Source: Picocystis sp. L7 | Taxonomy: Eukaryota > Chlorophyta > Picocystophyceae > Picocystales > Picocystaceae | Direction: 5' to 3' | Assembly: GCA_020975725.1 (NCBI GenBank) | Contig: QXJR01000006.1 | Span: forward strand, 186,001 to 250,000 | Length of the DNA: 64,000 nucleotides | Part shown: positions 15,493-55,450 of the stretch, one piece after another | How the letters are laid out: every line of letters begins with the position of its first letter | Position numbering within the stretch: the stretch's first letter is position 1 | Translations under genes and position numbers: made by a program | Notes under the pieces: model-generated | Database searches by the model: none | What the model was told of the DNA's origin: nothing | The model's input: the letters and a program-made list of their open reading frames with translations, nothing else

Positions 15493-18400
15493 ATGGAAGA
15501 AGGATACCGAGAGATGCGAAGGAAACAGGAGGAAGGGAAGCACGAAAGGGTCGTGGACGTGTTCCAAACCCACGTGGACGCATGGGAGAGATGGTTCGAG
15601 GATCCGAACCCGAAACCGCACAGGAGGAAAGGGACGCCAGGACACGACCAAGCCTGGACGAAAAGCACGGCCATGGCCACGGGAATGGCCGTCACCGCGC
15701 TCCAAAGCGCCGTGCAAGCCGAGGACAACGGACTCGTACGCATAGGATGCGAAGCCGTCGAAGCGATGCTCAGGTGGCTCCAAACCCAAGGACGCGGAAC
15801 CGACGGAGAAGGGAAGAAACGAACGTCGAAGATGTACGACGTGGCCTTCAAATACGCGTTCAAAGCCGCCAAGATCTACCTGGATCGAAAAGACGCCGTG
15901 TACGATCCGTGGGGGACGAAGCTGTGCCGACTCTGCGTCCAATGCGGCGCCAACGTGATGGAACGAGAACCAGACGCGTTCCGAGCCGGACTGGAGCTGT
16001 GCAAATCCATCCCGGAAGACATCCGCCTCAAGGTGCACCTGGACCTGATCCAATTGGCCTCGCAGCTCCCTTCCCACGTCGCCGTCCCCGCACAGATCCT
16101 CGTCAGGACCATGGACGGGATGATCCGTTGCGGCCGAGACCACGTCCTGCCCGCGGAATGCATGCCAGCCCTGAGGATCCTGCATCGATCCTGCACCGCA
16201 CGCGTGGAAGACGGCTGCGCGTTGCCCGTATACTGCGCCACCGTCGGGATCCGATGCATGGCGGGGATGGACAGGCCCAAGGTCGAGGACACGCACCTAC
16301 TGATCGAAGCACTCCAATTCACCACCACGCACCTCGAACGGACCACGCAGGCCTGGAAGGAAAACCGGGACAAGGGAGCGAGCCAGAGTTCGGACGACGA
16401 CGACGACGACAAGGGGACGGATGCCGTCTCCCTGCTGCTGCGCGGGATGCTGCTTTACAACGAGACGTACCGCGGCGAGGGATTCCTGCGGACACGGGAG
16501 AAATGGGAACGATCCACCACCAAGCACCGCAAGAGCGCCGCCAACGAGGCCGCGTCCTTGCATCGGACGATCGTCCGGTCCGCCATGGTCCTGTGCGGAT
16601 CCTATATCCATCCGGGGGTCCCACCAGGGACGCTCGAGCCCGGCGCCTCCGAGGCCTGTTCGGGGCACGTCAACGAAGCGATCCTGGTGATACTGAAAGG
16701 CATGGAACGGGAAGGGCGGGAGACGGGTGGGACACACGGGCTGGCCGATGGCCTGTCGAATTTGGACCTCGACGCGTCCGTGGCTCCCGAGCCTTCCGGA
16801 GACGATTTCTTTCGACGCTTTTTGGAGGAGAACGGGCACAAGCTCTTGGATGCCAGCACCCGGAAGCACCTTTTCGAGTTTCTGCTCTTCCGAGCTTCCG
16901 AGGTCAAGGGCGATGGCGGGAGCGGAGACCCTGTCACCTGGCTCGTCCGAGCGCTGAAAGTATGCGCGGCGCTGCCCTCTCCGCTTTCAATGGACCGGGC
17001 GATCGACCTGGTGGCTCATCTGTCGGAAGCCGTTTCGAAAGCAGCCTCTCCGATGCAGCAGTGGCAGCGCGTCCTGCTGGAGACGCACGAGGAGCTGGAG
17101 AACACCGAAGCCGCCCGCATCCTCATGGACGCGGCCATCTCCACGTTGGTTCAGACGTGCAAGGACCCTTCGTTGCTCGTGCGGGAGATGCATGCGAGCA
17201 GGATTCCAGACGAGCTGTCCTTCTCGCTCCTTCTGGCCCACGTCGTACGGGCGGCCAATTCGACCGCCAATCGCCTGGACCTTCCGGAGGAGACGCGACA
17301 GGACGCGACCAGGGAACTGGCTTCGCTTCCTCGATCCGAAGCCTCCGGTCCGAAAAGGTTGAACGTGGCGATGCATCGTGCCTTGCCCCTCCTCGGCACG
17401 AGCGCCGGCACCGGCCTCGTCGATCGGGTTCGGCAGGAGATCGAAAGCGAGGGACAAAACAGCATCGAGGCAGCGCTCGTTCTTTGCTGCAAAGCGGTTT
17501 TCTTGCACGAGGAATCGCATCCAAGCTTCGCCGAGACGGCCGCGCGAGCGCTGGACGCCTGCGAGCCCTTCCTGATGCAAGGGCGGCCTCACCCGTCCGA
17601 GCGTGTCCAGGTCGGATCCGTGCCTCCTGGTGCGAACCGATCCATCCTCCATCCTCCCAGAGTGGCACAGGATTTCGTGTGGGCGACCACGGCCCTCGTG
17701 GCGGTGATCCTGTCATCCGGAAACGACGCGCTCTGGGACCGCCCGGAGCCTTTCTGGCAAAAGTGGATGCGTTGGTGGTCGGGCCACGCGAGCGACGGGC
17801 ACGGATACACGCGTTTGCCGACGGCACGTCACTTTTTCTGCGTGAGCAACGCCGCGCAGGACGTCGGGGTCCTCGACCCACCGTTGGGGCAGGCGATGAA
17901 GGACCTCGGCGACCCCGCCCTCCAATTGCTGGCTATGCAGACCTTATGCTACGAGATAGACGGGTCTATGGAGGCGGGCCGCGTGGTCCGGGCCACGAGG
18001 ACGGCTTTGGATGCAATGGGAACGTTGGAAACGTGTGTGAGGAGGAACGCATGCACGTTCCTCCCTTTGCTCGACCTCTGCAGGTTCGTTTCCGGACGCC
18101 TGGCATTGAGCATCGCGACGCTCCTGGCCGGGAAGTCGTGCACGCTGGGGGGCATGAGCAAGGAGGGCGAACAACTCTTGAAGCAGTCGTTGTCTCTCAG
18201 CAAGGAAGCGAAAGCCACGTGGCTTGAGCGACGCTGCACCGTGCTCATTGCATCCCTGTACAGAAGGAAGGGACTTCTCGATCTTTCTCTGGAGACCCTG
18301 AAAGGTTTGAAAGCTCCGCACGACCACGCGTCCAACGGGCGTCTATGCAAGACCTGCTGCGATTGGATCTCCGTCCATTGCTCAATCATCGAGGCAGATG

Positions 18401-20520
18401 TCCTTAGAAACAAGGGACGTTTCGACCGGTCCTTGGACCGGTACCAACTTGCTTATCAGGCTGCGAAGAGCAACGACTTCCAGCAACTTTCCATCTCGTG
18501 CCTGCTCGGTAGAGCCAAGTGCTTGATGAGCGGTGTGGAAGGTGACGATGATCCATGTTGCGAGACCGCTTGCGACCAGCACGAGGAAAGATGCAAGCGG
18601 GCATTGTTGTTGGTAGAAGAAGGCCTTGCCGAAGCTTCGGAGGAACCAAGGTTTTGCCTGCTCAGGGCGTGCTTGGTGGTGGTCGCATGCGTGTGCAGAA
18701 TTCGTCTTGGCCAGCCCAGCAGGATGACGAGGCCAGAGAGAGAAGAAAGAGTACGCTTCTGGGGAAGCCATTCCGGCCGCGCGTGTCTCCTGTCAGATAC
18801 GGAAAAAGAGGAGTTGATATCGGATCTTCTGGTTGCGTATCGTCTCGCAAAGGAAGCGCCATTGATCCACCGCAAAGCGTGCGGGCTCTTGAGCTACGTC
18901 TTTGGATGCTTTGTTGGTGACGCAGCTACCTCGACTTTTTTCTTGCACTTGGCTGTGGGTGCCTCTTTTCGGTGCAGCCTTCTCCTCCAACTTCAACCGG
19001 GCGGCTGTCTACATCCGGATGCTCGGAGCGGAATGTTCGCGAGGGTGGATCCGAAGCACGACCGGGAATCACTTCTTTTCGGTGCTACGATGGAAGATGC
19101 GCTCCGCGGACCCGAGATCCGCGGACGTCTTGATGCCCAACAGGTCGCGCAGAGGCATCTCGTTGCTTTGGGGAGCCACTGCTTGAATCATCCGATCGTT
19201 GTCTGTGCTATATTCAGCGACGAAGGAGTTTTGATGCAAGAAGGCAGCGCGTTCCCAGTGAACTCTTCAAAGGCGCGCTTGCTTTTGTCTCGCGTCGACT
19301 CGGACAATGCGCCGATTCTGGCTGAAACCAGCGTTCACGTTTCCCAAGTCAAAGCAGACGGATCCCCGGGTGCTTCGATACCAATCAGAGAAACTCTCCG
19401 TGCCATACTTGCAGAGAGCGCAGAATCCTTGTTTTTCGACGAAGCAGAACCAACGGCGCGCTCCAAACTTGAATGGTGGAAGAAGCGGCTGGAGGTGGAG
19501 AGCAAAATGGAACGTCTTTTGCGAAGAATGGATCAGGAGTGGCTTGGGGTGACAAGCTGTCTGTTTGCAGACGCCGCGAAAGCCCCAGATGTTTCTCGGA
19601 TTGGGAAGCATGCTCCAGGAATACCGGGGCGCTTTCTCTCCCTGCTCGCTTGTCACGCTCCAGTTCTTGAGAAGAGATCGGTCATCGAATTCCTCGAAGA
19701 TTACTCAGGAAGCAGCTGCGCTGCCGAAGACCTCTTTCGTCGTATGACTTTTCTTGCGGAAGCCAATGGTACGGTCGAGCATGCTCCAGTTGCTTTCGTT
19801 CCTGACACCTCCATCCAAGGGCTTCCCTGGGAATCTCTTCCAAGCATGATTGAGTTTCCTGTGGTCAGGTCGCCTTCAGTCTCCTTGAACTTGATTGTTT
19901 CCGCACTGCTTTCTAAAGAGACGTTCAATTTGGACTTTTGCAAAGCATTCTATCTACTTGATCCTGAAGGCAACTTGCCAACGACATCCAAGACTTTCGG
20001 CCACTTTTTGATGGAAATGGAAACCGAACATGGATGGACCGGGATATCTGGGCAAAGGCTGCCTCCCAAGGAGTTGCACAAGGCAATCTCGAAGGAGGAC
20101 TTTTTTGTTTACATTGGACATGGAGCACCCAAGAAGTATCTACCTTACTCACCTCTGAAGCCTCTTGGTAGCACGGCTGCAGCAGTTTTGATGGGCTGCA
20201 GTAGCGCACGTCTGTTTCAGCATGGCTGCTTCGAAGCAAGTGGTTACATCCTGACCCTCCTTTTGATGGGGTGTCCATTTGTGATGGGTAATCTTTGGGA
20301 TGTGACGGACCGTGACATTGACAAGTTTAGCATCAACTTGTTCAGATGCTGGCTTTCAAAATCAACAGTGCTGCCAAAGAATGAAGAAAACGAGGTTCGA
20401 TCCAGGGCTTCTTACCTTGAAGGGATGTCCGGATGTCGAAAATGTTGCAAGTTGCCATATCTGAATGGTGCAGCCCCGGTATGTTATGGAGTACCATGTG
20501 CTTTGAACATGTCATCCTAA
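15493..20520 (+). CDS. ESP1: separase (cysteine protease of clan CD, peptidase family C50)
   Basis: Cleaves the cohesin kleisin subunit at anaphase onset. One uninterrupted 5,028-nt frame encodes 1,675 residues from the ATG at 15493, within the range of known separases (1.6-2.2 thousand). The catalytic dyad is clear: His1543 in 'YIGHGAPKKYL' and Cys1569 in 'AVLMGCSSARL'. The conserved tail follows: 'LLMGCPFVMGNLWDVTDRDI' and, near the end, 'LNGAAPVCYGVP'. The family-typical 'QGLPWES' lies about 100 residues before the dyad. The long N-terminal part is helical with no motif I recognise, as expected for the poorly conserved alpha-solenoid. It includes an Asp run at about residues 302-307. The first two thirds are distinctly GC-rich and the last kilobase drifts towards lower GC. 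Securin is not in the window. Confidence 0.94.
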   Translation: MEEGYREMRRKQEEGKHERVVDVFQTHVDAWERWFEDPNPKPHRRKGTPGHDQAWTKSTAMATGMAVTALQSAVQAEDNGLVRIGCEAVEAMLRWLQTQGRGTDGEGKKRTSKMYDVAFKYAFKAAKIYLDRKDAVYDPWGTKLCRLCVQCGANVMEREPDAFRAGLELCKSIPEDIRLKVHLDLIQLASQLPSHVAVPAQILVRTMDGMIRCGRDHVLPAECMPALRILHRSCTARVEDGCALPVYCATVGIRCMAGMDRPKVEDTHLLIEALQFTTTHLERTTQAWKENRDKGASQSSDDDDDDKGTDAVSLLLRGMLLYNETYRGEGFLRTREKWERSTTKHRKSAANEAASLHRTIVRSAMVLCGSYIHPGVPPGTLEPGASEACSGHVNEAILVILKGMEREGRETGGTHGLADGLSNLDLDASVAPEPSGDDFFRRFLEENGHKLLDASTRKHLFEFLLFRASEVKGDGGSGDPVTWLVRALKVCAALPSPLSMDRAIDLVAHLSEAVSKAASPMQQWQRVLLETHEELENTEAARILMDAAISTLVQTCKDPSLLVREMHASRIPDELSFSLLLAHVVRAANSTANRLDLPEETRQDATRELASLPRSEASGPKRLNVAMHRALPLLGTSAGTGLVDRVRQEIESEGQNSIEAALVLCCKAVFLHEESHPSFAETAARALDACEPFLMQGRPHPSERVQVGSVPPGANRSILHPPRVAQDFVWATTALVAVILSSGNDALWDRPEPFWQKWMRWWSGHASDGHGYTRLPTARHFFCVSNAAQDVGVLDPPLGQAMKDLGDPALQLLAMQTLCYEIDGSMEAGRVVRATRTALDAMGTLETCVRRNACTFLPLLDLCRFVSGRLALSIATLLAGKSCTLGGMSKEGEQLLKQSLSLSKEAKATWLERRCTVLIASLYRRKGLLDLSLETLKGLKAPHDHASNGRLCKTCCDWISVHCSIIEADVLRNKGRFDRSLDRYQLAYQAAKSNDFQQLSISCLLGRAKCLMSGVEGDDDPCCETACDQHEERCKRALLLVEEGLAEASEEPRFCLLRACLVVVACVCRIRLGQPSRMTRPEREERVRFWGSHSGRACLLSDTEKEELISDLLVAYRLAKEAPLIHRKACGLLSYVFGCFVGDAATSTFFLHLAVGASFRCSLLLQLQPGGCLHPDARSGMFARVDPKHDRESLLFGATMEDALRGPEIRGRLDAQQVAQRHLVALGSHCLNHPIVVCAIFSDEGVLMQEGSAFPVNSSKARLLLSRVDSDNAPILAETSVHVSQVKADGSPGASIPIRETLRAILAESAESLFFDEAEPTARSKLEWWKKRLEVESKMERLLRRMDQEWLGVTSCLFADAAKAPDVSRIGKHAPGIPGRFLSLLACHAPVLEKRSVIEFLEDYSGSSCAAEDLFRRMTFLAEANGTVEHAPVAFVPDTSIQGLPWESLPSMIEFPVVRSPSVSLNLIVSALLSKETFNLDFCKAFYLLDPEGNLPTTSKTFGHFLMEMETEHGWTGISGQRLPPKELHKAISKEDFFVYIGHGAPKKYLPYSPLKPLGSTAAAVLMGCSSARLFQHGCFEASGYILTLLLMGCPFVMGNLWDVTDRDIDKFSINLFRCWLSKSTVLPKNEENEVRSRASYLEGMSGCRKCCKLPYLNGAAPVCYGVPCALNMSS

Positions 20521-24359: not shown

Positions 24360-27300
24360 TGGTATCGGAGCCCGTTTGAAGCAGAAGAAAACAGAAAACA
24401 AACTGAAAAACTAAACAGAAAGAAAACGCAAAAAAAAAAAAAAAAAAGAGAACAGAGAAAAACAAAAACAAAATGGAAGGAGTGAACTTCGAGAAACTGA
24501 ACTCCGAAAACTTCCCGATATGGAAACATCGGATGAAAGCTTTGCTGGTCACCAAGGGAGTTGGAGAAGCCATCTTAAACAAAGACAGTGAACACTCTGA
24601 AAAGGCATTGGCACTCATGTGCTTGTGTGTGAGCAATGAGTATGTGGATTTGGTGGCGAACTCTGAATCTGCGCAGCATGCGTGGACGATGCTCGAGGAC
24701 ATGCATGCGGGACAAACCGCCGCACGCCGTCTCACCCTGCGCAAGGAGTTAACAGGACTTACCAAGAAACCGGAGGAAAGCATGATGAGCTTCATCATGC
24801 GTGGAAAGCAGATCTGCACCAACCTGCGCGCGATCGATGGGTCGGTGACCGACATCCATCTGATCGATGCGATCCTATCTGGCCTGCCGGAGGAATATGC
24901 CAACAAGGTAGAGATGCTGACTACCTTGGGAGAGACAGACATGCTCAAAATTCAGAATCAGCTTCTCCAGGCAGAAAGTGCCATCACCGTGCGAGAGACA
25001 TCTAGAGGCCAGGTTGCTTTCGCTACACAGAACCGACGCCCGAAGTTTACCTGCAGCTATTGTGGCAGAAGTGGACATGGCCGTGAAAAATGCTGGTACC
25101 TGAACGGATTGCCTCCACATCTGCAGAAACAACCCAGAAACGATAGGGAGACGGATGAAAAGGTTGCACTGGTCTCTTACGCTTTGGAATGTGGAAATGC
25201 AAACTGTTTGGAAAATATCTGGATCGTGGACAGCGGCGCCACCGCTCATGTTTGCGCTCAACCAGAGATGTTTACATCTATGACACAAGAAGCATCGCCG
25301 CAATCGATCTTGGTTGGAAATGGAGAAGTAGTGCACGCCAAGCAATCTGGAACCGTTGCTCTTGCTGAAAACGTGGAATTGCAGAAGGTGCTGTTTTGCC
25401 CGGAACTACGGGTGAACTTAATCTCGGTTCCAAAACTGATGGAACGTGGATGCAACGTGTACTTTGAAAATGGGGAATGTGCGATTTGGAAAGGAAAGCA
25501 GAAAGTCCTCAGTGCGGTGCAGAAAAATGGTCTTTACGTGATCTGTGGAAAAATGGAAAACGTTTTCTCAGCCATGGAGTGGCACAGAAAATTGGCTCAT
25601 TTTGGCCAGATGGAAAAGCTGCACGACACCGTGGTAGGTGTACCAGACAATCTAAAGTGGACCAAAATCAGTTGTGAAACGTGCATCCAAGCCAAACAAG
25701 CCAGATCTGCTATTCCCAAAGGAAATGAAGAAAATCAAGCAAATGTCGGAGAATTGTTGCATATGGATTTGATGGGACCCATCACGCCTGCTGGAAAGAA
25801 CGGAGAAAAATACATTGTCAGCATTCTGGACGAGAAAAGCAAACTGGGGGTTGCAAAACCTATTTGCAACAAATCACAAGCAGCAGCTGTCATTAAAACG
25901 GTGATTCGGCTGATGGAGAAGCAAACTGGAAATGCTGTGAAGTTTGTGCGTTCGGATCGTGGAACCGAATTTCTCAATGCAGAGTTACAAAACTTTCTGC
26001 AAGAAAACGGCATCCAGCAACAGACGAGTGCACCATACACTCCACAACAAAATGGAAACGCAGAACGATATAACAGGACGATTCTGGAAAAAGTGCGCGC
26101 AGTGCTCTTGGATGGTGGTCTGGACAAACGTTTTTAGAACTTTGCCGTGGAATATTGTGCTCTTGTCAGAAACCGTGTTCCTTGCAAACCTCATGGCCGT
26201 ACACCCTACGAAGCAGTTTTTGGTCACAAACCGGATGTTTCCAATATGCACATATTTGGTGAAACTTGTTATGTGCTGAAGAATCCAACTGAGACCACTG
26301 GAAAGCTGGATGCAAAAAGTAAGCCAGGTCATTTCGTTGGATTCGAGCCTGGAACAAAAGACACGTACCGTATTTGGTGTGGTGAAAAATTGGTACTGTC
26401 CAGAAACGTCACTTTTCTTGGTGTGGCAGAGAAACCTACAACATCGCCAGATGACACTCAGGAAGACATAACGCCTATGCCTACCGCGTCAGAAACATTG
26501 GAAACTGTTTCGTTGGGGGAGAGGCAGAACAGTACAATTGAAAATGTGGAATTACCAGAGCACGAAACAACCGAGGGAATGGAAAATTCAGAAAATATCA
26601 GCAATACCGCTGCTGAAGAAAGGCGCTACCCACTTCGTGAACGTCGTCCACCACCGCCATATTGGACTGCAAATGTTTGCTTGACCGATCCTTTGACTTT
26701 GGAAGAGGCTTTAGGTAGCCCCCAGCACGATGATTGGAAACTGGCCTTGCAGGAAGAAGTATCCAGTTTGAGCGAGCAGGATGTTTTTGATGTGGTGGAC
26801 CGAACGCCTCAGATGAAGACTCTGCCTTGCAAGTGGGTCTTCAAGGTGAAGTACGACCAAGATGGGAACATCCAACGCTTCAAGGCTCGTCTGGTTGCCA
26901 AAGGATTCAAACAGGTGGCTGGAATTGATTTTGGTGAAACGTTTGCACCGGTGGCAAAACAAAGCACTTTGCGTTTGTTGTGGACCTTGGCTGCTAAACG
27001 AGACTGGGAAGTCGAAAACATTGACATCAAAACGGCTTTCCTCAACGGTGATCTCGACGAAGAAATCTACATGGATATGCCACCTGGTTTTCAACTGGAT
27101 GGCAAAGTTTGGAAATTGAAAAAGACCCTGTATGGTCTTAAACAAGCCCCACGTGCGTGGCACATCAAACTCACGGATGTTTTGGAAAAGCTTGGATTCA
27201 GATGCTCAACTGCAGATCCGGGCTTATACGTGGGTGAAGACATGCTGCTGATGGTCTACGTGGATGACCTGTTGCTTTGTGGAAATGGCAGATCAAAAGT

Positions 27301-28222
27301 GGAAAATGTCAAGCAATCCTTGCTGACCACCTTTGAAGGCAGAGACCTCGGGCCCACGGATCACTTTCTGGGAATTAAAATGGAACGTGATCGAACTGGA
27401 AAAACGGTTTTCCTCAGTCAAGAGACCTACGTGAACAACGTGCTGGAAAGGTTCAGAATGGCAGATTGCTACAGTGTCTCTACGCCATTGGAACCTGGAA
27501 CAAAATGGACCTCAGATGCATCAGCGACAGAATCCAACTTTCCATACCAGGAATTGGTTGGGTGCCTGATGTACTTGGCAGTGTCCACAAGACCAGACAT
27601 AGCTTATGTGACCAATCGTCTGGCCCGCTATGTCTCTGCACCAACTAGCAATCACGTGGCCGTGGCCAAGAGGGTCCTGAAATATCTGCATGGCACAAAG
27701 GCAGTTGGTATCTTGCTGGGTGACAGCTCCCCAAGTTTGCTGGAAGGCTAATGTGATGCCAATTACGGAGGCTGTGAAGAAACCAGACGTAGCACAACTG
27801 GCTACGTGTTCACTTTGCATGGCAGTTTGGTTTCCTGGCAGACAAAATTGCAGAAAACAGTTGCCGTGTCCACGACGGAGGCCGAGTATATGGCTGCTGC
27901 CTCTGCAGCAAAAGAAGCGTTGTACCTGAGAAAGGTGTTGAATGATATTGGATTTGGGGCCCAATGTATCACCATTCATTGTGACAATCAAGGTGCTGTG
28001 AATTTGACGAAGAACGCGCTGACCGTGTCCCGTACGAAACACGTCGATATCGCACATCATTTTGTGCGGAACCGCGTGAGTCGAGGAGAGCTGAAATTCC
28101 AGTACATCAGCACAAATGACCAGCTGGCAGATTTCCTGACCAAGGCCCTGGGGCCCACCAAGTTGCAAGCTGCATTGAAGACATTGGGCTTGTTGGAATA
28201 CCAGGCCATGAGCAGGGGAGAG

Positions 28223-29115: not shown

Positions 29116-29411
29116 TGTAAGAAGCAGGGTGTTGACTTTGGATACGTTCGTGGGTTGCCACCTTCGTAGTTGTGTATTACATGCAAGAATGAGTGGTGAG
29201 TATCCCTACGCAATGGCGGCTTCATCGACCGCAGAGGACCTCTCAGTAACCGGGATCCCTCCTCGTCGGTCTCGTTCACTGCAGGAATGGGCATCGCCCT
29301 TCGAGGACCCCCAGGGGGGCCCCATACTCCTCGAAGGTACTCGACCGAAACTCGGTCGTGGTCCCTAAGGGATTCGACCTCCCAGGGACCAGGGCTTGAG
29401 CAGCCTCAACA
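29116..29411 (-). repeat. copia copy B, 3' LTR
   Basis: 296 bp, TG...CA ended. Matches the right LTR of copy A. Confidence 0.93.
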
Positions 29412-32400
29412 CTCTCCCCTGCTCATGGCCTGGTATTCCAACAAGCCCAATGTCTTCAATGCAGCTTGCAACTTGGTGGGCCCCAGGGCCTTGGTCAGGA
29501 AATCTGCCAGCTGATCATTTGTGCTGTTGTACTGGAATTTCAGCTCTCCCCGACTCACGCGGTTCCGCACAAAATGATGTGCGATGTCGACGTGTTTCGT
29601 ACGGGACACCGTCAGCGCGTTCTTCGTCAAGTTCACAGCACCTTGATTGTCACAATGAATGGTGATGCATTGGGCCCCAAATCCAATATCATTCAACACC
29701 TTTCTCAGGTACAACGCTTCTTTTGCTGCAGAAGCAGCAGCCATATACTCGGCCTCCGTCGTGGACACGGCAACTGTTTTCTGCAATTTTGTCTGCCAGG
29801 AAACCAAACTGCCGTGCAAAGTGAACACGTAGCCAGTTGTGCTACGTCTGGTTTCTTCACAGCCTCCGTAATTGGCATCACAATAGCCTTCCAGCAAACT
29901 TGGGGAGCTGTCACCCAGCAAGATACCAACTGCCTTTGTGCCATGCAGATATTTCAGGACCCTCTTGGCCACGGCCACGTGATTGCTAGTTGGTGCAGAG
30001 ACATAGCGGGCCAGACGATTGGTCACATAAGCTATGTCTGGTCTTGTGGACACTGCCAAGTACATCAGGCACCCAACCAATTCCTGGTATGGAAAGTTGG
30101 ATTCTGTCGCTGATGCATCTGAGGTCCATTTTGTTCCAGGTTCCAATGGCGTAGAGACACTGTAGCAATCTGCCATTCTGAACCTTTCCAGCACGTTGTT
30201 CACGTAGGTCTCTTGACTGAGGAAAACCGTTTTTCCAGTTCGATCACGTTCCATTTTAATTCCCAGAAAGTGATCCGTGGGCCCGAGGTCTCTGCCTTCA
30301 AAGGTGGTCAGCAAGGATTGCTTGACATTTTCCACTTTTGATCTGCCATTTCCACAAAGCAACAGGTCATCCACGTAGACCATCAGCAGCATGTCTTCAC
30401 CCACGTATAAGCCCGGATCTGCAGTTGAGCATCTGAATCCAAGCTTTTCCAAAACATCCGTGAGTTTGATGTGCCACGCACGTGGGGCTTGTTTAAGACC
30501 ATACAGGGTCTTTTTCAATTTCCAAACTTTGCCATCCAGTTGAAAACCAGGTGGCATATCCATGTAGATTTCTTCGTCGAGATCACCGTTGAGGAAAGCC
30601 GTTTTGATGTCAATGTTTTCGACTTCCCAGTCTCGTTTAGCAGCCAAGGTCCACAACAAACGCAAAGTGCTTTGTTTTGCCACCGGTGCAAACGTTTCAC
30701 CAAAATCAATTCCAGCCACCTGTTTGAATCCTTTGGCAACCAGACGAGCCTTGAAGCGTTGGATGTTCCCATCTTGGTCGTACTTCACCTTGAAGACCCA
30801 CTTGCAAGGCAGAGTCTTCATCTGAGGCGTTCGGTCCACCACATCAAAAACATCCTGCTCGCTCAAACTGGATACTTCTTCCTGCAAGGCCAGTTTCCAA
30901 TCATCGTGCTGGGGGCTACCTAAAGCCTCTTCCAAAGTCAAAGGATCGGTCAAGCAAACATTTGCAGTCCAATATGGCGGTGGTGGACGACGTTCACGAA
31001 GTGGGTAGCGCCTTTCTTCAGCAGCGGTATTGCTGATATTTTCTGAATTTTCCATTCCCTCGGTTGTTTCGTGCTCTGGTAATTCCACATTTTCAATTGT
31101 ACTGTTCTGCCTCTCCCCCAACGAAACAGTTTCCAATGTTTCTGACGCGGTAGGCATAGGCGTTATGTCTTCCTGAGTGTCATCTGGCGATGTTGTAGGT
31201 TTCTCTGCCACACCAAGAAAAGTGACGTTTCTGGACAGTACCAATTTTTCACCACACCAAATACGGTACGTGTCTTTTGTTCCAGGCTCGAATCCAACGA
31301 AATGACCTGGCTTACTTTTTGCATCCAGCTTTCCAGTGGTCTCAGTTGGATTCTTCAGCACATAACAAGTTTCACCAAATATGTGCATATTGGAAACATC
31401 CGGTTTGTGACCAAAAACTGCTTCGTAGGGTGTACGGCCATGAGGTTTGCAAGGAACACGGTTTCTGACAAGAGCACAATATTCCACGGCAAAGTTCTAA
31501 AAACGTTTGTCCAGACCACCATCCAAGAGCACTGCGCGCACTTTTTCCAGAATCGTCCTGTTATATCGTTCTGCGTTTCCATTTTGTTGTGGAGTGTATG
31601 GTGCACTCGTCTGTTGCTGGATGCCGTTTTCTTGCAGAAAGTTTTGTAACTCTGCATTGAGAAATTCGGTTCCACGATCCGAACGCACAAACTTCACAGC
31701 ATTTCCAGTTTGCTTCTCCATCAGCCGAATCACCGTTTTAATGACAGCTGCTGCTTGTGATTTGTTGCAAATAGGTTTTGCAACCCCCAGTTTGCTTTTC
31801 TCGTCCAGAATGCTGACAATGTATTTTTCTCCGTTCTTTCCAGCAGGCGTGATGGGTCCCATCAAATCCATATGCAACAATTCTCCGACATTTGCTTGAT
31901 TTTCTTCATTTCCTTTGGGAATAGCAGATCTGGCTTGTTTGGCTTGGATGCACGTTTCACAACTGATTTTGGTCCACTTTAGATTGTCTGGTACACCTAC
32001 CACGGTGTCGTGCAGCTTTTCCATCTGGCCAAAATGAGCCAATTTTCTGTGCCACTCCATGGCTGAGAAAACGTTTTCCATTTTTCCACAGATCACGTAA
32101 AGACCATTTTTCTGCACCGCACTGAGGACTTTCTGCTTTCCTTTCCAAATCGCACATTCCCCATTTTCAAAGTACACGTTGCATCCACGTTCCATCAGTT
32201 TTGGAACCGAGATTAAGTTCACCCGTAACTCCGGACAAAACAGCACCTTCTGCAATTCCACGTTTTCAGCAAGAGCAACGGTTCCAGATTGCTTAGCGTG
32301 CACTACTTCTCCATTTCCAACCAAGATCGATTGCGGCGATGCTTCTTGTGTCATAGATGTAAACATCTCTGGTTGAGCGCAAACATGAGCGGTGGCGCCG

Positions 32401-33267
32401 CTGTCCACGATCCAGATATTTTCCAAACAGTTTGCATTTCCACATTCCAAAGCGTAAGAGACCAGTGCAACCTTTTCATCCGTCTCCCTATCGTTTCTGG
32501 GTTGTTTCTGCAGATGTGGAGGCAATCCGTTCAGGTACCAGCATTTTTCACGGCCATGTCCACTTCTGCCACAATAGCTGCAGGTAAACTTCGGGCGTCG
32601 GTTCTGTGTAGCGAAAGCAACCTGGCCTCTAGATGTCTCTCGCACGGTGATGGCACTTTCTGCCTGGAGAAGCTGATTCTGAATTTTGAGCATGTCTGTC
32701 TCTCCCAAGGTAGTCAGCATCTCTACCTTGTTGGCATATTCCTCCGGCAGGCCAGATAGGATCGCATCGATCAGATGGATGTCGGTCACCGACCCATCGA
32801 TCGCGCGCAGGTTGGTGCAGATCTGCTTTCCACGCATGATGAAGCTCATCATGCTTTCCTCCGGTTTCTTGGTAAGTCCTGTTAACTCCTTGCGCAGGGT
32901 GAGACGGCGTGCGGCGGTTTGTCCCGCATGCATGTCCTCGAGCATCGTCCACGCATGCTGCGCAGATTCAGAGTTCGCCACCAAATCCACATACTCATTG
33001 CTCACACACAAGCACATGAGTGCCAATGCCTTTTCAGAGTGTTCACTGTCTTTGTTTAAGATGGCTTCTCCAACTCCCTTGGTGACCAGCAAAGCTTTCA
33101 TCCGATGTTTCCATATCGGGAAGTTTTCGGAGTTCAGTTTTTCGAAGTTCACTCCTTCCATTTTGTTTTTGCTTTTCTCTGTTTTCCTTTTTTTTTGCGT
33201 TTTCTTTCTGTTTAGTTTTTCAGTTTTTTTTCTTTTTTGCTTCTGCTTCAAACGGGCTCCGATACCA

Positions 33268-33564
33268 TGTAAGAAGCAGGGTGTTGACTTTGGATACGTT
33301 CGTGGGTTGCCACCTTCGTAGTTGTGTATTACATGCAAGAATGAGTGGTGAGTATCCCTACGCAATGGCGGCTTCATCGACCGCAGAGGACCTCTCAGTA
33401 AACCGGGATCGGTCCTCGTCGGTCTCGTTCACTGCAGGATTGGGCATCGCCCTTCGAGGACCCCCAGGGGGGCCCCATACTCCTCGAAGGTACTCGACCG
33501 AAACTCGGTCGTGGTCCCTAAGGGATTCGACCTCCCAGGGACCAGGGCTTGAGCAGCCTCAACA
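33268..33564 (-). repeat. copia copy B, 5' LTR
   Basis: 297 bp, differing from its partner at about four positions. Confidence 0.93.
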
Positions 33565-39012: not shown

Positions 39013-42000
39013 CTATACCTGAAAGTCATAGATGTATGCTATGGGGTCATACAACATTGATCTGATCTGGTCTGCAAGATAGTAGTCTTTCTTGCCATCT
39101 GTCCATAGCACCTCAAAGAGCCCATTGTCTTCATCTGTCACCAACCCCTGATAATAAGCTGACTTGTCCTGCCCCTCATGGAAAAGCTCCTGCACAACTG
39201 CGCCGGTTAGGTCGGTCCGTTGCGGCTTGCGTGGCCGCTGTCTGGTCTGAAAAGGTAGCTTGGTGAATGGCCAGGTGTTGATCATAATTGGGCTGGGTGA
39301 CTGCAAGTAGGTAGTTTTCTTATGCGTCTGAACTGCTTCATAGTTAGCATCTGTGATACCCTGTTCTGGAATACACCCATTGTGTTCTTCCAGTGGTAAA
39401 AAGTCATCCAACAAAGCTGCTGTTTCATCCACCCAGAAGTAGCGTTGCGAAGGATCTGACAGATTGCTTTCCACCCAATAGCGTACTGGCCTCGCTGGGA
39501 ACGCGGAGAAATCGCGCAGCAGGTAGCGTCGTATCCGGTACAGCTTTGACTCGGTGCGCATAGCATCTGTGTCCGGCAGCGGAGACGCTTGCAGTTGTCG
39601 CTCTTCGTCCATCGGAAATAGCGTGAGGTCTGAATCTGTCCAGTGTTCAAGGCGATCAGCGTGGATTCGTTCTGAAAATGCAGAGCCAGGTGGTAAGTCC
39701 AGTTCGTAACAGCCGTTCCTCAGCGCCCGTTTAATGACATAAGGGCCAACAAAGTATGGGTCCAGCTTATGTTTGTCAGCAGGCCCCTTGAGACCATACT
39801 GCACCTTCACCTTGTCCCCAGCTTCAAATGTTTTCTTCGGTCGATGCGCGGCAGCGGCGGCCATGCGCTCCGCAGCTTTACGCAAATTGGCCTGGACAGT
39901 ATCGTAGACCGATCGGTGCTGTTTTAATAAACTGGTTACCCGGCGGTCGAATGTCGTTACGATGTCTGATTGATTAGTGCCCTCTATGGTTGGAATCTGC
40001 AAATGCCAGGGCAGTCTGGATGGACATCCAAATAATAGCTGAAAGGGTGAGAAGTTAGTAGCTGTATGCACCGAATCGTTGTATGCGTGAGCTGCTGCTT
40101 GTAAGAACAGATCCCATTGGTGCTTATCAGAGCATGTTGTTCTCAGCGTTTGCAGGAGCGTGCGATGCTGTCGCTCTGCTCCTCCCTGCGATTGAGAATG
40201 ATATGGAGTGCCAGTAACATGGCGGACTCCCAAAGCTGCACAGAAAGCTTGAAACAACGATCGGTAGGCGGGCCCGTTGTCGGTATGTATATGAACTGGG
40301 GTGTGATACTTGTACACCAGGTTATCCATTAAGCACTGAGCCTGACGATGCGCACTCCATGTGGAGTGGATCGGTATATAGATAGCGAACTTCGTGAAGC
40401 GGTCCACCACTGTCAAGACAGCATTATGGCCAAGAGCAGTGAGCAGTAGATTTTCAACCACATCTATCACAACAGTATGGAAAGGATATGGAAAGAACCT
40501 GAACTCTGGGCAAAGCTGACTGTGTCGGGACCGGTTACTGGGCTTCTGCAGTTGGCACACAGGGCAGCGTGCGACGAAGAGTTCGACGTGTCTCTTCAGG
40601 TCCTTCCACGTGAAGTGTCTTGAGGCATCTGCATAAGTTCTCGCTGAACCAAAGTGTCGCTGATCATGAACCATGTGTAGCAGCTCCTGTCTGAGGCTAT
40701 TGTCTGCAGGCACCACCAGTACTGGCTGTGCATTGTCACTGGTTGTAAAAAGAAGGCTGTTCTTGACAATATGGTCTTCAGTTGGAGAATGAAGAAGTTC
40801 CTGGTAACTGGCATCATTGTCGGCAGCGATGCGTATACGCTCCAGTAGAGTAGGTGGCTCCCCTTGCGTAGCGCAGAGCATTGAGCGCACCGATCGTGGC
40901 GTAGTAATTGACGCGATCGATCCACACACAGTCCCTGCTGGACTGCGGCATGCTAGCGGTCTAAGCGTCCGTGTGTGAATTTGCCAACGCAGCAGCATGT
41001 GGGCAATCCATCCAACTGGAAATGCATTACCACACATGCGCTGCCGGCTCGCATCGCTTACGTTCGCTGCAGCAGTATCACCAGGCTGCATCCCAACCAA
41101 TCGCTCTCGTTCGTTAACGCTCAGCGGGCGAAGTTCGCCTCCTTCATCATGGACCCAGGTGGTTTTCGCACGATCGCTGTGCGACCGTGAGCTGGCCATC
41201 AAAGTTGGACATTTCAAGCGAGGTCGATTCAGAGCATCGCGTTGGACGGTTGCACCAGCATCCAAGCACTCCTGCCAGGTAAGAGGTATTGGTCCCATCG
41301 AGAGCTGAGGTTCCTGCAGGGGGGGGTAGTGAGGTCCAGCATAACCTTGTACGAGCCTGCGCCCCATACTGTGACAGGTCCTCAACTACTGGGGATCCAA
41401 ACCATTCAGCAATCGTGTCCAGGTGAGATTCCAGGTGAGTAGCAAATGGGGTGCACTCTAATATAAAGTCCGGACTGTTCAAGCGCTTGTGTATATTAGC
41501 AACTGCAGTGAACAGCTCTCGTTGGTCAAACAGTCCCAGGGGAGGTTTGCCTTGGTCTGTGTTCGCTCGCGAAAAGGGCTGGCAGGGTACTCCTGCTATA
41601 AGTAAGTGTACCTTGGGGAGTTTTCGCCGCTGCCCTAATATGGTCACATCATTGCCGTAACGGAATATGTCTTTGCGCGTAAACAGCCCTGGACGGGCGA
41701 GTCGTACTTGATTGAACACCCTCTGTATGACGCTGCGGCAATCTGGGTCCCTTTCGACGGCAATGTAATCGATCGTAATATCTGTGGATGGAGGCAGAGC
41801 AATTTCCAAAGCGCGTAGCGCTGTACCCATACCAGCACACAGATCCAGTATGCAGTAGACTGATCCGCTGTCCACCTTAGCCGAATGGCGCGATAAGTAG
41901 TCTGCCCCAGTATTTTCTGATCCTGGTCTATACTCAACAGTGAAGGGGGCAAAGTAGGCTAATTTCTCAATCCATCGCATCTCGCGCGGAGACAGCTGCT

Positions 42001-44035
42001 CTGTAGACTTGGTGTTGAGGAAATGGCTGGCTTTGTTATCCGTAAGTACGCTGAAGTGCTGACCAAACAACAAGTGTCTCCAGTGCTGCAGAGCATACAG
42101 GATGGCACAGGTTTCCTTCTCTGCTGGATGATAATTCTGTTGGGCTTGATTCAGCTTCTTTGACCAATATTCAACTGGGTGCCACTCCCCTTGCTCATCC
42201 TGCTGCATCAGAACTGCTCCCATGCCGATGTCCGAAGCATCCGTCTCGACTCGGATCGGTCGGTCCTCATCGAAGAGTGCCAGGACGGGTGGGTTCGTGA
42301 GTGCTGCAACCAGTTTGTTATAAGCTTCTTCTTGTGGGCCTTTCCAGTAGGATGTGAACCCATGTTTCATCGATGCCTGGTTCAACTCAGTCAATGGGGC
42401 TGTAAGTTCAGCATAATGCGGGACGAATCGCATATAGAATTGGCACAGCCCAAGGAAGGCCATATTATCGCGTTGCGACTGCGGTCGTGGGAACTGCTGG
42501 ATCTTGGTAAGTAGGTGGTTGGTACACGCCAACTGTCCATTACGTATCCGAAAGCCTACCCACTCCAGAGTACTTCTGAAAAAGTGACACTTCGATCGTT
42601 TCAGCCGGATGTCGGCCTGTTCGCAGGTAGCGAAGAATTCCTCAAGGTGTTGGAAATGCTGTTCTTTTGTTTCAGAATGCACCAATATGTCATCCATGTA
42701 CACCTTTAAGTAGAGCAGGTGACCAAATATTCTGTTCATCATGCGCTGAAACATCGCAGGCGCGTTGGCAGCACCCATGGGCATGACCTTCCACACATAG
42801 GATCCAAAGGGTGTGACCACTGCAGTTTTATGGATGTCGGCAGGATCCATCCTAACCTGGTGGAACCCATCCAAAGCATCCAGCGAGGAAAAGTATTTCG
42901 CACCTCTCAAGTTCTGCAGGTAGTCATCTATACGGGGCAGCGGATATCTGTCCTTGACAGTAACATTGTTAAGCAGGCGGTAGTCAAACACGACCCGCCA
43001 GCCCCCGTCTTTCTTCGGTACTAGGATTACTGGGGCTCCCCAGCTGGAGCCAGCACAAAGGTCCATTTTACCGGCATCGACGTATTCGCTGATTAACTCC
43101 TTTAGGGCAGCCTGCTGGTGAGGGGATAGCCGATAATAATTCCTGTACTGCGGGGTCGCATTTTCAGTGAGCTGTATTTTGAAGGCCTCTCCGCTAACAC
43201 GCTCTGGCGGTAGCTGCGTACGAGGCTCAAATAAGCCCTTATATCGGTGATTGATCAGTCGGTCCAGCCGGTACTGATCGCTGTGGTCCAGCTCCCATTC
43301 ATCGCTGACTTTTGTCCGCATGTGGTCAAGGTCTGCTTCTTCATCGATAATTTCTGGTCTGGGATCCAGAGGCTGTATCATAAGCAATAGACAGCCTGGG
43401 TCCTGTACCGCCTTCCGAGCTTCGCATCTGGGGACGATTAAGTCCAGCTTTCTGGATGCGATGAACTGGTGATCTCCATACACAGTGTGCTTTCTGCCAT
43501 TACTGTTCTTTAAGACCATTCGGTGGTTCTGCCAGTCTAGGGCCATCAGGTGTTTGTCACAGAAGGTCCCCCCTAATATGCAATCAAATGTCTCCAGTGG
43601 TGCAACTGCGAAGGGTACTTGACCACGGAAGCCATCGATCGTAACGGTGGCCTGAATTACTGGGGCTGTATGAACCTGCTGGCCTACGGCTACGGTGAAC
43701 TGCACGGCATCGCCAGTGTTCTTCCAGGTCACCCCTGCTGGGTCAGTGGACTGCAGTTCATGAAATAGTTTCTCGCTGATGAATGAGTAGCTTGCTAATG
43801 TATCAAGGTAGGCTTGTGTCCTGATTTTGTTCGTTTTCTTTCCAAAGTAAGTTTCTGCAGCTAGGAATTCCTGTCTAGGCCTTATATTACTCAATGAGTT
43901 CAGGCAGACAGGAGTCCTTTCATTGGTAACCGGGGCTGCTGCTGGTTTCGCTCCCGGCTCCGCTCCGGTAACCTGGGTCACCGGGCGGAGAGTACTCAGT
44001 TTTTTGGGGCACCCATAACAGATGCCATTTTGCAT
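39013..44035 (-). mobile_element. gypsy element pol region with embedded methyltransferase
   Basis: In order on the minus strand: aspartic-protease-like domain (about 43.9-43.5 kb), reverse transcriptase (about 43.2-42.6 kb; 'VYMDDILVH'), RNase H (about 42.3-41.9 kb; 'ETDASDIGMGAVL'), cytosine methyltransferase (41.87-40.98 kb), and integrase with a zinc-binding HHCC part and a DDE core (about 40.75-40.0 kb; '[10 protein letters not shown]', 'GGAERQHR'). The C-terminal part to 39013 has no chromodomain that I recognise. The region reads in two overlapping frames. Confidence 0.9.
40980..41870 (-). mobile_element. cytosine-5 DNA methyltransferase domain inside the gypsy element
   Basis: Carries the ordered motifs of C5-DNA methyltransferases: motif I 'ILDLCAGMGTALRALE', motif IV 'AGVPCQPFSRAN' with the catalytic-type PCQ, motif VI 'FILECTPF' in place of the common ENV, motif VIII 'QARTRLCW', motif IX '[15 protein letters not shown]' and motif X '[13 protein letters not shown]'. 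The PCQPFS form resembles bacterial and Dnmt2-like enzymes more than Dnmt3 (PCND), but subfamily placement needs a tree. Confidence 0.88.
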
Positions 44036-45234
44036 GAGGACTGATCATGGCCGTAACGACGGCAGCGTTGGCACAGCCCGTGCGCAAGGCACATGTTCTT
44101 CTCTTCCTGGGACAGCCTGGCTCCGAGCGGCTTGTTCGATAGCTGAGTCTGCACCTTTATGATAGCACTCTTCTGCCCTTCATCGAGATCGTCGAATCGC
44201 TTTCGCTCTCTCCTTGCGGAGCCGCTGTCCTGATTATCCTTCGATGGCGCCGGCATCGCAGCAGCTACTGGCCTTCGCATCGGTTCCAAACGGGGACGGT
44301 GATCGCTGTTGCGACGGGCAGTTGCGTAGCGGTTCGTCGATTGATCATCAGCTGTCTTGGTCTCTTTGCGGGGCTGTTCAGCAGCTTCCTTTTCTAGCTT
44401 GAATATGACTGATGCTAAGTTTCCTGGTTCCATGTCAGGAACTTTATCCACATCAATCAGGTGGTCCAGGTGCTTATACAATGCTCGCTGGAGGTAGGCT
44501 GGCAGTCCATGCTGCAGCCTTGCTGATATATCATTCTCCGTTAGCGTACGGCATACAGGAGACGTACTTGCGTTGACGACGAATGTCAATTGCACCAGCC
44601 GGTTCAGAAACTGTAAAGCATTTTCGCTCCTGCGCATACGGGTAGTATGAAATTCGCGCCATGCCTCAGGGCCTGGGTCTTGATTCTGGAACGTACGGCG
44701 GAGGTAAGTGTACAATTCTTCCACTGATTTGAGGGCGCCTGGATCGCGCATAATGAGATTCTGCACCATTGATTTTGCTGTGCCTCCCAAAGCTTGACTG
44801 ATCGCAAGTACCAACTGCTCTTTCGGACGGTCGAGAGCGTATGCTTGGCACCAACACACAACATCACGATACCAGTAAGTTAAAGCATATGGATTTTCAT
44901 CCAGCTCCAGTCTAGTAAATTTTTCAGGCTTCTCCAGGGAGACCTTTTGTATGTTCTTTGAGTCCTGGAGGGCTGTTCCATACAATGTGGTGAGATGAGG
45001 AAGTCCCTCTTCCTCGGAGGGCGCATGCGTCCCTCCTACGGTTGTCACTTGCTGATTTTCTTGGTTCTCATCGGTGATATTTTGTTCTTCGCCATCAGTT
45101 GGATTTGTTTGCAAGGCTTCAAGCTGACCTTCGAGCTCAGCAATGCGCTCTTGGAGCGTGCTTCGCATGGCTCGTTCTTCCTCCAAGTCCCTACGGAGCG
45201 AACCCATTCGAGTTGTGTGCTCCGGATCTTCCAT
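43996..45234 (-). mobile_element. gypsy element gag region
   Basis: About 412 residues. It opens with a coiled-coil-like stretch rich in Glu/Leu/Arg, continues with a retrotransposon gag core ('EKFTRLELDENPYALTYWYRD', partly 'WREFHTTRMRRSENALQFLNR'), and ends with a CCHC zinc knuckle 'CQRCRRYGHDQSSC'. Its end overlaps the start of the pol region in another frame, a common gag-pol arrangement in LTR elements. Confidence 0.88.
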
Positions 45235-52985: not shown

Positions 52986-55290
52986 GGCAGTTGGCGCACT
53001 CAGGTGTGGTTCACAGGATCCCTGTGTCACGGATCTGTCTTCTCAGCTCCTTGGATCTGCGTCGATGCACGCGTGCGGGTGGGGTTCGTGCGGCGTGCCT
53101 GTGTTCGTTGCACACTCCTTTGCCCTTGGAAGGAGGTGCGATCGCAGATTTTTCACGCGGATGTCCGAGGTTGTGCAGGCATGTCCTTGTCGCACTGCCA
53201 GCTGGAAGCAACGCGTCGTCGATGAGCCACTCCTTCGAACCAAACCACAGTGCGGGTGTCTTGTTCAGTCCTTTTCAGCCACGATCCTGGTGTCCCGTTG
53301 GGATGGATGCCCTGGATGGTGTTTCGAATGGATCCCTTCCCCTCCACCCAGGTACAAACGATGACAACCCCCATCACCACGTGGGTGGAACCCCACCACG
53401 CGAACCCGTGAAGAAAGGGACAGAAGGAAACGATCCCCCTCCCATCCCCACTCGTGGCTCGGGACCTAGCAGCCACCCGGCCGTCCACCACCAAGGGGTG
53501 GGACCAACCTCAGGCCAGGCCATGGACCATCCGACCCTGCGGCTCGAAACGAAGCAATGGGCACGCCCACCGGTACGCTAACCCTCCCAAAGATGGAGGG
53601 TAAAGAGACGAAGGCGAACGTGAGGTACCCACCTATCACACATCTGCAAAAGTCGAAGCCTACGAGTGGCTTTGAAGAAAAGAAAACAGGGCGTGTCGGA
53701 CGCGGCCCATCAATGATATAAAATGACGCCGCAAGCATCCACTTGTTGTCCCTCACATCCAATGAAACAGACGAACATTCAACCGGTGGCTCACTCGATG
53801 TCTCGCATGTGTGTGCCAAAGCGTTCCCTTGCAAATTTTGCGCCGACCATTTACCTTCTATGTGTAGGCATCTCCGAATAGCAAGCAATGAACAAGACCG
53901 CTTTGTTATTGCAATATTGGCATACTCGAGAAAGAATCGCGCACCAAACATGAAAGGTTGATCATCGTGTCATCCCTCAAGCCCCCCATGCAAGATCTAC
54001 TCGACTGGGTTATGTCAAGCCACCATCATTCTTTTCGTACTAATCTACTTTAATGCGAAACCAAACGAATTTGTCGATCCAAAACGAAGGAGCCCGATCC
54101 GAGAAGTTAGAACATGCACGCATCCTCCTTATATCGTACAAGCCATTTTGCAAAGAATGGCTCACGTACCTTTTTCTTTGACGTGTAAGCGTGCCACATC
54201 AATTTACATTAATACAAGCATAAATGATTTTGCTTCGTGGGCAAGGACACAAATGTTGTGCTCTTCCATTGCACTTTGAGGCCCGAAATGAATTGTTGTA
54301 CCAAATGCGCCTGGCAACATTGATGGAGACAAAAAATGCTATCAACAAACCCAACCGCATTTGCGGCTTGTGCCTCGAGAGCACATTTCAATTCCTACCG
54401 CATCTACACTTTTGCAATACATACATGTACTAGAATTATTTTGTCAAGAAGTCACGACCGTGAATTTCTACGTCATGCAGATAGAGACCCGAAGACAAGT
54501 CTTTTACAATTGCTTGCGTATTCTAAAAGAGAGTTCTTACTTGCTCGCAAGTTTTACAACGTGTTCGCGCGCTAGCTCTTGCACATGTACCAATGCATGC
54601 CTACAATATTTTAAAAGGAATTAAGAGGTATGTGGTCGAAACAAAAGCCATGATTTTTTGTCTAAGATTCTTGGGAACACGGAGTCGTGAAATCATTTAT
54701 CGCCCGTTCATCCGTGGACCCACAAAGAATTCAATACAACAAGAGATTCCATTGCGAAACCTGTTGGGTATGGCACATCTTTCGATTCACTAACCATCAC
54801 TATGGCTCGTGATGGACAAGGAGCTTCTTTGGGAGCTCATGGTCTAGGTTGTCCATTTAAAGCGCAGTTTGTCAAGTTTTTCCTTCCGAACTTTCTAATA
54901 ATCATCGAGGACTGAGTTATCGAAAACACCTCAAAATCTTTAGCAAAGAGTTCACCAAAAAATATGTAACTTTCATCCAAGTGCATTTCAATACATCGGA
55001 GTAAGAGTTGTCATGACGTTCCTTGGATATTGATCCGGTTGTCTCCATGAGGAGGGGTGATCGAGATTGGAAAATGGTGCTAAAATTTCCATGAATAGGT
55101 CGCTTCGTGCTTTCCTGGCGCTTCCACACAATTCAAGTTTTATGCTCTTGTTGACACTTGACCAAGCACTTGGTAGAAACCCTTGGCCGAACCCTAGTTC
55201 GAACATGAAGGGCGCTTTTGAGTGTTTATAGTTATAATAAGCGCAAAATTGGGAGATTTTAACTCATGTTAAGCCCATGGCGCCCTCATT
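52986..55290. other. intergenic, no gene recognised
   Basis: About 2.3 kb. GC-rich to about 53700, then AT-rich. Only chance open frames. Confidence 0.5.
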
Positions 55291-55299
55291 GGCGAAGGG

Positions 55300-55405
55300 A
55301 TCTGGGGATTGCGGGTTCGAGTCCCGTCATGGACGGATGCGATCGGGTCTGACTGCGCATCAGACTCAGTCCGTGTGGCCTAATGGATAAGGCACCAGAC
55401 TTCTA
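55300..55405 (+). tRNA. trnR-UCU: circularly permuted tRNA-Arg(UCU) gene
   Basis: The 3' half comes first (55300-55335) and the 5' half second (55369-55405), separated by 33 nt. Reading the 5' half and then the 3' half gives a perfect 73-nt cloverleaf. Acceptor stem: GTCCGTG with CATGGAC (one G-U). D stem: GCCT/AGGC with an 8-nt loop. Anticodon stem: CCAGA/TCTGG. Anticodon loop: CTTCTAA (anticodon UCU). Variable loop: 5 nt. T stem: GCGGG/CCCGT around TTCGAGT. Discriminator G; CCA is not encoded. The outer ends form a canonical bulge-helix-bulge: 3-nt bulge 55298-55300, 4-bp helix 55294-55297 with 55400-55403, 3-nt bulge 55404-55406, then pairing of 55291-55293 with 55407-55409. It is cut and joined at position 37/38. 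The B box (55314-55324) precedes the A box (55376-55386), the reverse of a normal gene. The 33-nt linker holds a hairpin GTCTGA/TCAGAC. Confidence 0.95.
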
Positions 55406-55446
55406 CGCTCGCGTCGATGCGAAAGGGCGTGCACAGGACCATCTTG

Positions 55447-55450
55447 TTTT
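55447..55450 (+). terminator. likely RNA polymerase III terminator (T4)
   Basis: A TTTT run 42 bp after the 5' half of the permuted tRNA gene is the first T4 on the coding strand beyond it, so the primary transcript should include both halves and the trailer needed for the bulge-helix-bulge. Confidence 0.55.

Follow-up and report, generated by a model that had tools for sequence, protein, structure and literature searches.

Can a stretch of DNA in which the 3' half of a tRNA stands ahead of its 5' half be a working gene, and what would such an arrangement say about the genome that keeps it? The question is raised by a locus in a window of 64 kb (the whole stretch of DNA that was analysed, 64,000 nucleotides), which lies within contig C4 of an assembly of 20.5 Mb in 30 contigs. 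We hold it very probable, at about 0.93, that a green alga has here, in its nuclear genome, a functional tRNA-Arg(UCU) gene in circularly permuted form, of the type II whose halves are split between tRNA positions 37 and 38. The basis directly in hand consists of the sequence, the cloverleaf, the bulge-helix-bulge (BHB) at the junction, the genes for the splicing endonuclease and for the ligase RtcB, and sister permuted genes in the same genome.

A tRNA-Arg(UCU) in two reordered halves

Re-reading of the sequence confirmed the coordinates of Table 1, with the 3' half ahead of the 5' half, the 33-nt linker between them and, by direct reading, the B box upstream of the A box, an order of elements that the earlier note had already described. 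Since the 3' half precedes the 5' half, an ordinary or intron-containing tRNA gene is ruled out. Once rejoined, the halves give a cloverleaf of 73 nt in which all stems are paired: 7 of 7 pairs in the acceptor stem (one G-U), 4 of 4 in the D stem, 5 of 5 in the anticodon stem, and 5 of 5 in the T stem (one G-U), with UCU as anticodon. The residues U8, G18G19, U33, and TTC, which are consensus in eukaryotic tRNAs, are present, position 73 is a G, and the CCA end is not encoded. ARAGORN calls the rejoined halves tRNA-Arg(tct), and the minimum free energy (MFE) of the cloverleaf fold is -27.4 kcal/mol.

Table 1. Features of the permuted tRNA-Arg(UCU) locus, in window coordinates, and places of the two sister genes
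Feature	Position	Strand	Evidence or remarks
TATA-like AT-rich element TATAGTTATAATAA, possible Pol III promoter element (inferred)	55227-55240	+	sequence
GGC, upstream arm of inner BHB helix	55291-55293	+	pairs with GCT 55407-55409, one G-U
GAAG, upstream arm of 4-bp BHB helix	55294-55297	+	pairs with tRNA 32-35
3-nt bulge GG^A	55298-55300	+	predicted endonuclease cut 55299/55300
3' half of tRNA-Arg(UCU), positions 38-73, 36 nt	55300-55335	+	sequence, ARAGORN, R1/R2 models
B box within 3' half, GGTTCGAGTCC	55314-55324	+	
Intervening linker between mature 3' and 5' ends, 33 nt	55336-55368	+	two competing hairpins
5' half of tRNA-Arg(UCU), positions 1-37, 37 nt, A box inside	55369-55405	+	sequence, ARAGORN, R1/R2 models
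CTTC, tRNA 32-35, partner arm of 4-bp BHB helix	55400-55403	+	4/4 Watson-Crick
Anticodon TCT	55402-55404	+	
3-nt bulge TA^C	55404-55406	+	predicted endonuclease cut 55405/55406
GCT, downstream arm of inner BHB helix	55407-55409	+	
T4, possible Pol III terminator	55447-55450	+	41 nt past 5' half
Permuted tRNA-Ser(AGA)	C1 near 1333273 (L049:1370-1534)	-	linker 83 nt, BHB helix CTAG/CTAG
Permuted tRNA-Ser(CGA)	C10 near 633475 (L100:209-334)	-	linker 44 nt, BHB helix CTCG/CGAG

In the native order, neither ARAGORN nor Rfam found a single tRNA in the 64-kb window. Such silence of the standard scanners would suit two unrelated tRNA-like fragments, or a chance fold, that form no gene unit; yet it is also what a permuted gene is expected to give, because these tools are built for the normal order of the halves. 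More telling is a covariance model (R2) that contains no permuted gene and was built from 14 ordinary tRNAs of the host's nuclear genome after rotation at 37/38; 20 ordinary tRNAs had been rotated, and six were left out of the alignments because their shorter variable loop was shifted there. On the 64-kb window, R2 finds positions 55300-55405 with 48.9 bits and an E-value of 3.5e-12 (E-values of this model are rough because its calibration was short), and the sole other match at E<=10 has 11.2 bits. A second model (R1), which contains all three permuted genes of the genome, gives 63.3 bits to the locus, itself part of the training set. Half matches at ordinary tRNA loci set the scale for these scores: they reach 33.4 bits with R2 (21 loci) and 33.2 bits with R1, most of these tRNAs being in the training set, so low scores are meaningless; an 18.5-bit match in locus L127 was discarded as a half match at an intron-bearing tRNA-Met. 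With 48.9 bits from a model blind to the locus, far over the best half match, a fortuitous fold has a next to negligible probability. The search of the rearranged halves with a tRNA model that the earlier note had proposed is thus answered alike by ARAGORN, R1, and R2.

The flanks of the halves provide the second line of evidence. They form a strict BHB of the 3-4-3 type, with a 4-bp helix that is Watson-Crick in all four pairs and an inner helix of 3 bp, and both predicted cuts fall between tRNA positions 37 and 38; together with the ARAGORN call and the R2 match, this bears out the reading of a circularly permuted tRNA-Arg(UCU) gene with a canonical BHB. Four-base complements to positions 32-35 occur at 430 of 67022 places in three host sequences (0.64%), which makes a complement at the exact BHB offset informative by itself. 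Without constraint, the MFE structure at the locus shifts to an adjacent register in which the bulges are smaller, and its energy is 5.9 kcal/mol lower than that of the BHB fold. The locus might instead be the silent relic of two tandem tRNA-Arg genes, the upstream one reduced by chance to its 3' half and the downstream one to its 5' half. The order and orientation of the halves fit this explanation, and tandem duplication followed by loss of the outer halves is indeed a published model for the origin of permuted genes (PMC3978253). In a silent relic, however, nothing would preserve the whole set of 12 pairs between the halves (7 in the acceptor stem and 5 in the anticodon stem), nor a Watson-Crick complement of positions 32-35, with its base rate of 0.64%, outside the tRNA at the exact BHB offset; the two sister genes carry such a complement as well. 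We regard a relic as highly improbable.

Host genome and proposed maturation of the permuted transcript

The host looks like a green alga, judging from its protein sequences, and the matches listed for them include no close relative that bears a name. We take contig C29 to be mitochondrial because we read cox1, cob, and nad in its translations, and C30 to be the plastid contig from the translations of psaA, psaB, and chlB, the names of chlB and psaA being backed by those of their matches; C30 also carries a plastid-type RNase P RNA. Among the best 120 matches of each protein, many of which are without names, the named ones for chlB come from green algae only, the closest being Interfilum terricola at 77%, those for DnaJ from land plants and green algae at about 52-56%, and those for psaA from green, red, and glaucophyte algae alike, full-length and at about 82-86%. 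No match named Ostreococcus or Micromonas appears for chlB, DnaJ, or psaA among these best 120 each. To our knowledge, chlB is absent from both Ostreococcus and Micromonas; the present host differs from O. tauri in retaining it in the plastid.

The genes for an endonuclease that cleaves BHB motifs and for an RNA ligase are both found in the same genome as the permuted tRNA. A profile search gave two tRNA_int_endo genes (PF01974), at C7:401468 and C1:672938, whose frames, from a reading of their translations, are presumably Sen34 and Sen2. An RtcB gene is located at C7:819885 (E 1.3e-163). The plant-type ligase PF09511 had no match in a search of the genome in which the control was silent too. 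ARAGORN also reports intron-bearing tRNAs, namely Leu(CAA) with an intron of 126 nt and Met(CAT) with one of 18 nt, and a His(GTG) with a 29-nt intron that is poorly paired and a doubtful call. A nuclear selenocysteine tRNA is found on C6 near 605783 (L067:1437-1522; Rfam tRNA-Sec, 76.2 bits).

We infer the transcription, the circle, the trimming, the aminoacylation, and the identity of the ligase from the family to which the gene belongs, and maturation would then proceed as follows: 1) the locus would be transcribed in the order leader, 3' half, linker, 5' half, trailer; 2) the flanks would fold onto the anticodon stem and form the BHB; 3) leader and trailer would be released by the tRNA-splicing endonuclease, with one cut after 55299 and the other after 55405; 4) a ligase, for which the RtcB type is the candidate, would join 55405 to 55300 into a circle of 106 nt that retains the linker; 5) RNase P and tRNase Z would excise the linker at the acceptor stem; and 6) CCA would be added, giving a mature tRNA that reads AGA codons. 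According to the 2014 review of permuted tRNAs, three forms have been detected for those of algae: a linear precursor, a circle with the linker still inside, and the mature tRNA ending in CCA. The review ascribes the cleavage to the splicing endonuclease and names RNase P and tRNase Z as possibly removing the linker (PMC3978253).

The halves might also be processed without any circle, as separate or trans-spliced half-tRNAs, in the manner of archaeal split tRNAs, which are joined through BHB motifs according to the same source (PMC3978253). Here they share one strand at a distance of 33 nt, predicted folds show the linker closed off by the acceptor stem, the linker contains no T4 run, and circles have been detected for the permuted tRNAs of algae (PMC3978253); all of this argues against separate half-tRNAs, which we hold to be very improbable. 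The linker of the permuted gene has been credited with a hairpin that could guide RNase P or tRNase Z. The palindrome is real (GTCTGA/TCAGAC, 55347-55352/55360-55365), and when the whole locus is folded it pairs as described; when the linker is folded alone, it loses to a competing hairpin, GATGCG/CGCATC (55336-55341/55356-55361). With two rival hairpins and nothing in its favour, the guiding role was set aside.

Possible signals for transcription can be pointed out on both sides of the gene. The T4 run that the earlier note saw downstream is present (Table 1), and runs of at least four T occur within 110 nt downstream of all three permuted genes and of 18 of the 21 ordinary nuclear tRNAs. Upstream, the element TATAGTTATAATAA may help the transcription of the Arg(UCU) gene; the shorter TATAGTTATAA within it has two matches in the window when at most one mismatch is allowed, one of them exact (55227-55237), against 0.11 expected, and the 14-mer TATAGTTATAATAA has no second genomic match with at most one mismatch. 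Of the 21 ordinary nuclear tRNAs, 6 have a TATA-like match within 100 nt upstream, as does one of the three permuted genes; the permuted Ser(AGA) and Ser(CGA) have none at that distance. A TATA-like promoter as a general rule was rejected on these counts. The present genome differs in this from Cyanidioschyzon merolae, where TATA-like elements are described upstream of most tRNA genes. An exact TATAGTTATAA is found upstream of the permuted Arg(UCU) gene (-73, 55227-55237) and of an ordinary Arg(UCG) gene (-100, L070), and at none of the other loci examined.

Sister permuted genes and the search for an ordinary tRNA-Arg(UCU)

Two further permuted genes, for tRNA-Ser(AGA) and tRNA-Ser(CGA), are encoded in the genome (Table 1). 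Both have their junction at 37/38, a 4-bp helix that is Watson-Crick in 4 of 4 pairs at the same offset as in Arg(UCU), and the GG^A bulge; their inner BHB helices have 1 and 0 pairs only. From their sequences, the two Ser junctions come closer to the relaxed hBH type reported from green algae (PMC3978253), and their unconstrained MFE and BHB folds differ by 10.5 and 8.1 kcal/mol. R1 recovers both, with 49.8 bits for Ser(AGA) and 55.5 bits for Ser(CGA), each being in its training set, and R2 recovers neither of these class II tRNAs with longer linkers. A blastn search of the genome with the joined Ser(CGA) (E<=1) returns only the two Ser loci and misses the 5' half of Ser(AGA). The B-box motif GGTTCGANTCC occurs at 177 places in the genome, of which 78 were read and three are within permuted tRNAs, so the count of three permuted genes is a lower bound; the places left aside include 15 of the 16 in an array on C15 (see below), three on C19, and four known tRNAs (C13:568874, C15:53812, C15:396492, and C16:27087). 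Two candidates proved false: in L069 the B box is part of an ordinary tRNA, and L114 is a short palindrome without tRNA arms and without a match to R1.

The AGA codon is in use: five conserved stretches, 885 codons in all, contain 41 codons for arginine, and 7 of these are AGA. Some gene must therefore supply tRNA-Arg(UCU). A blastn search with the 73-mer against the genome (E<=10) returns just the two halves of the permuted locus. Nor is there an Arg(UCU) among the 21 ordinary nuclear tRNAs that were read, a set that comprises 21 of 22 nuclear tRNA matches (C7:700872 was left out) and comes from a genome scan that scored 63 out of 710 candidates for tRNAs. The intronless anticodon arm GACTTCTAATC, a pattern that detects one form of the arm only, has three genomic places against three for the reversed control: in the nuclear genome both places have disrupted stems and gave neither a tRNA call nor a match to the model, and the plastid one is outside any called tRNA. 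Given the 63 of 710 candidates scored, and a blastn that can miss a 5' half, these searches could overlook an Arg(UCU) gene that has diverged or bears an intron. Within their scope, the permuted locus is apparently the only Arg(UCU) gene of the nuclear genome, and the partial blastn and arm-pattern searches found no ordinary copy that could replace it if it were a silent relic of tandem genes. The survey of the genome suggested in the earlier note has therefore yielded, at partial coverage, two more permuted genes and no ordinary Arg(UCU).

Permuted tRNAs of other algae and surroundings of the locus

Permuted tRNA genes are rare; by the 2014 count, 34 were known from six algal species and one archaeon (PMC3978253). 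For Ostreococcus tauri, Table 1 of that source has a type II permuted Arg(TCT) whose linker measures 11 nt (Maruyama et al. 2010, via PMC3978253); the same review gives a permuted Ser(CGA) for O. tauri, Ser(AGA) for Micromonas pusilla, and Ser(AGA) and Ser(CGA) for the nucleomorph of B. natans (PMC3978253). The nucleomorph of A. amoebiformis has permuted Ser(AGA) and Ser(CGA) as well (PMC4494063), and Auxenochlorella UTEX 250-A was added in 2025 (PMC12636532 / PMC12633428). The closest counterpart of our locus is the Arg(TCT) of O. tauri, which shares with it the isoacceptor, the type II junction at 37/38, the lack of an intron, and the nuclear location in a green alga, a likeness drawn from tabulated features (PMC3978253). 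The two differ in the linker, of 11 nt in O. tauri against 33 nt here, and the locus has a strict hBHBh' with an inner helix of 3 bp, whereas the form given for the junctions of green algae is hBH (PMC3978253).

Cyanidioschyzon merolae, in which 11 of 43 tRNA genes are permuted (PMC3978253), has in common with the Arg(UCU) gene a 3' half that comes first, a BHB at the junction, a T-stretch downstream, and no encoded CCA, and the 33-nt linker is inside its range of 7-74 nt (PMC3978253); it has several junction types, and its tabulated permuted genes include no Arg(TCT) (PMC3978253). The chlorarachniophyte nucleomorphs of B. natans and A. amoebiformis carry the same two permuted Ser isoacceptors as the present genome (PMC4494063). 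The junction of the B. natans Ser genes is likewise at 37/38, and their linkers are of 5 nt against 83 and 44 nt here (PMC3978253). In the green alga Auxenochlorella UTEX 250-A, the tRNA set from an ordinary scan was incomplete and permuted genes were then found (PMC12636532 / PMC12633428). A literature search of incomplete coverage returned no further green-algal cases. The Arg(UCU) locus is then a new example of an already known gene type, and its interest is mainly distributional; the suggestion that it may extend the known range of permuted genes is weaker than first stated, as far as these sources go, since green-algal cases were known, including Arg(TCT) in O. tauri and those of Auxenochlorella (2025).

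How old is the permuted state? Other greens likewise have these three isoacceptors permuted at 37/38, which is the reason for reading the likeness as shared ancestry: the permuted state may go back to an ancestor early in the green lineage, with repeated losses since, and with what is apparently the only Arg(UCU) gene kept in that form here. Against this counts the 2014 review, which finds no conservation of the permuted isoacceptors from one organism to another, describes their distribution as patchy, and favours separate origins (PMC3978253). That permuted Ser(AGA), Ser(CGA), and Arg(UCU) are an old trait common to green algae, and not a quirk of Mamiellales, is therefore a tentative idea that we think rather unlikely. 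The presence of at least three permuted genes with isoacceptors common to other greens bears on the choice between an ancient and a recent origin, and also on how a cell keeps the apparently sole copy of a tRNA in scrambled form. As at the Arg(UCU) locus, ordinary tRNA scanners overlook permuted genes.

Other features of the window and of the genome are of a different nature. The minus strand of the window holds frames of a Gypsy-type retroelement with reverse transcriptase, RNase H, and integrase domains (39013-44044), and inside its pol frame there is a match to the C-5 cytosine DNA methylase family PF00145 with 25.3 bits (cut-off 22). Two copia-like sets of frames are found in inverted orientation about 1.7 kb apart (24407-27751 on the plus strand and 29406-33428 on the minus strand), with translations near-identical by eye. 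A single open frame of 1798 aa (15124-20520, plus strand) has a separase domain (Peptidase_C50, E 3.9e-65), and at 4230-5210 a 25-bp unit is repeated in 39 tandem copies with several open frames on both strands. On C15, the motif GGTTCGACTCC occurs at 16 places between 484819 and 584890, mostly at a spacing of 4.7-4.8 kb with few larger gaps, on the plus strand first and then on the minus strand, which suggests a large inverted array; the one place in L115 has no Rfam match. Finally, contig C29 (96999 bases) has its mitochondrial tRNA and rRNA blocks repeated in direct and inverted copies, and several of its tRNAs appear a second time 80888 bases away, which looks like an overlap of the contig with itself.
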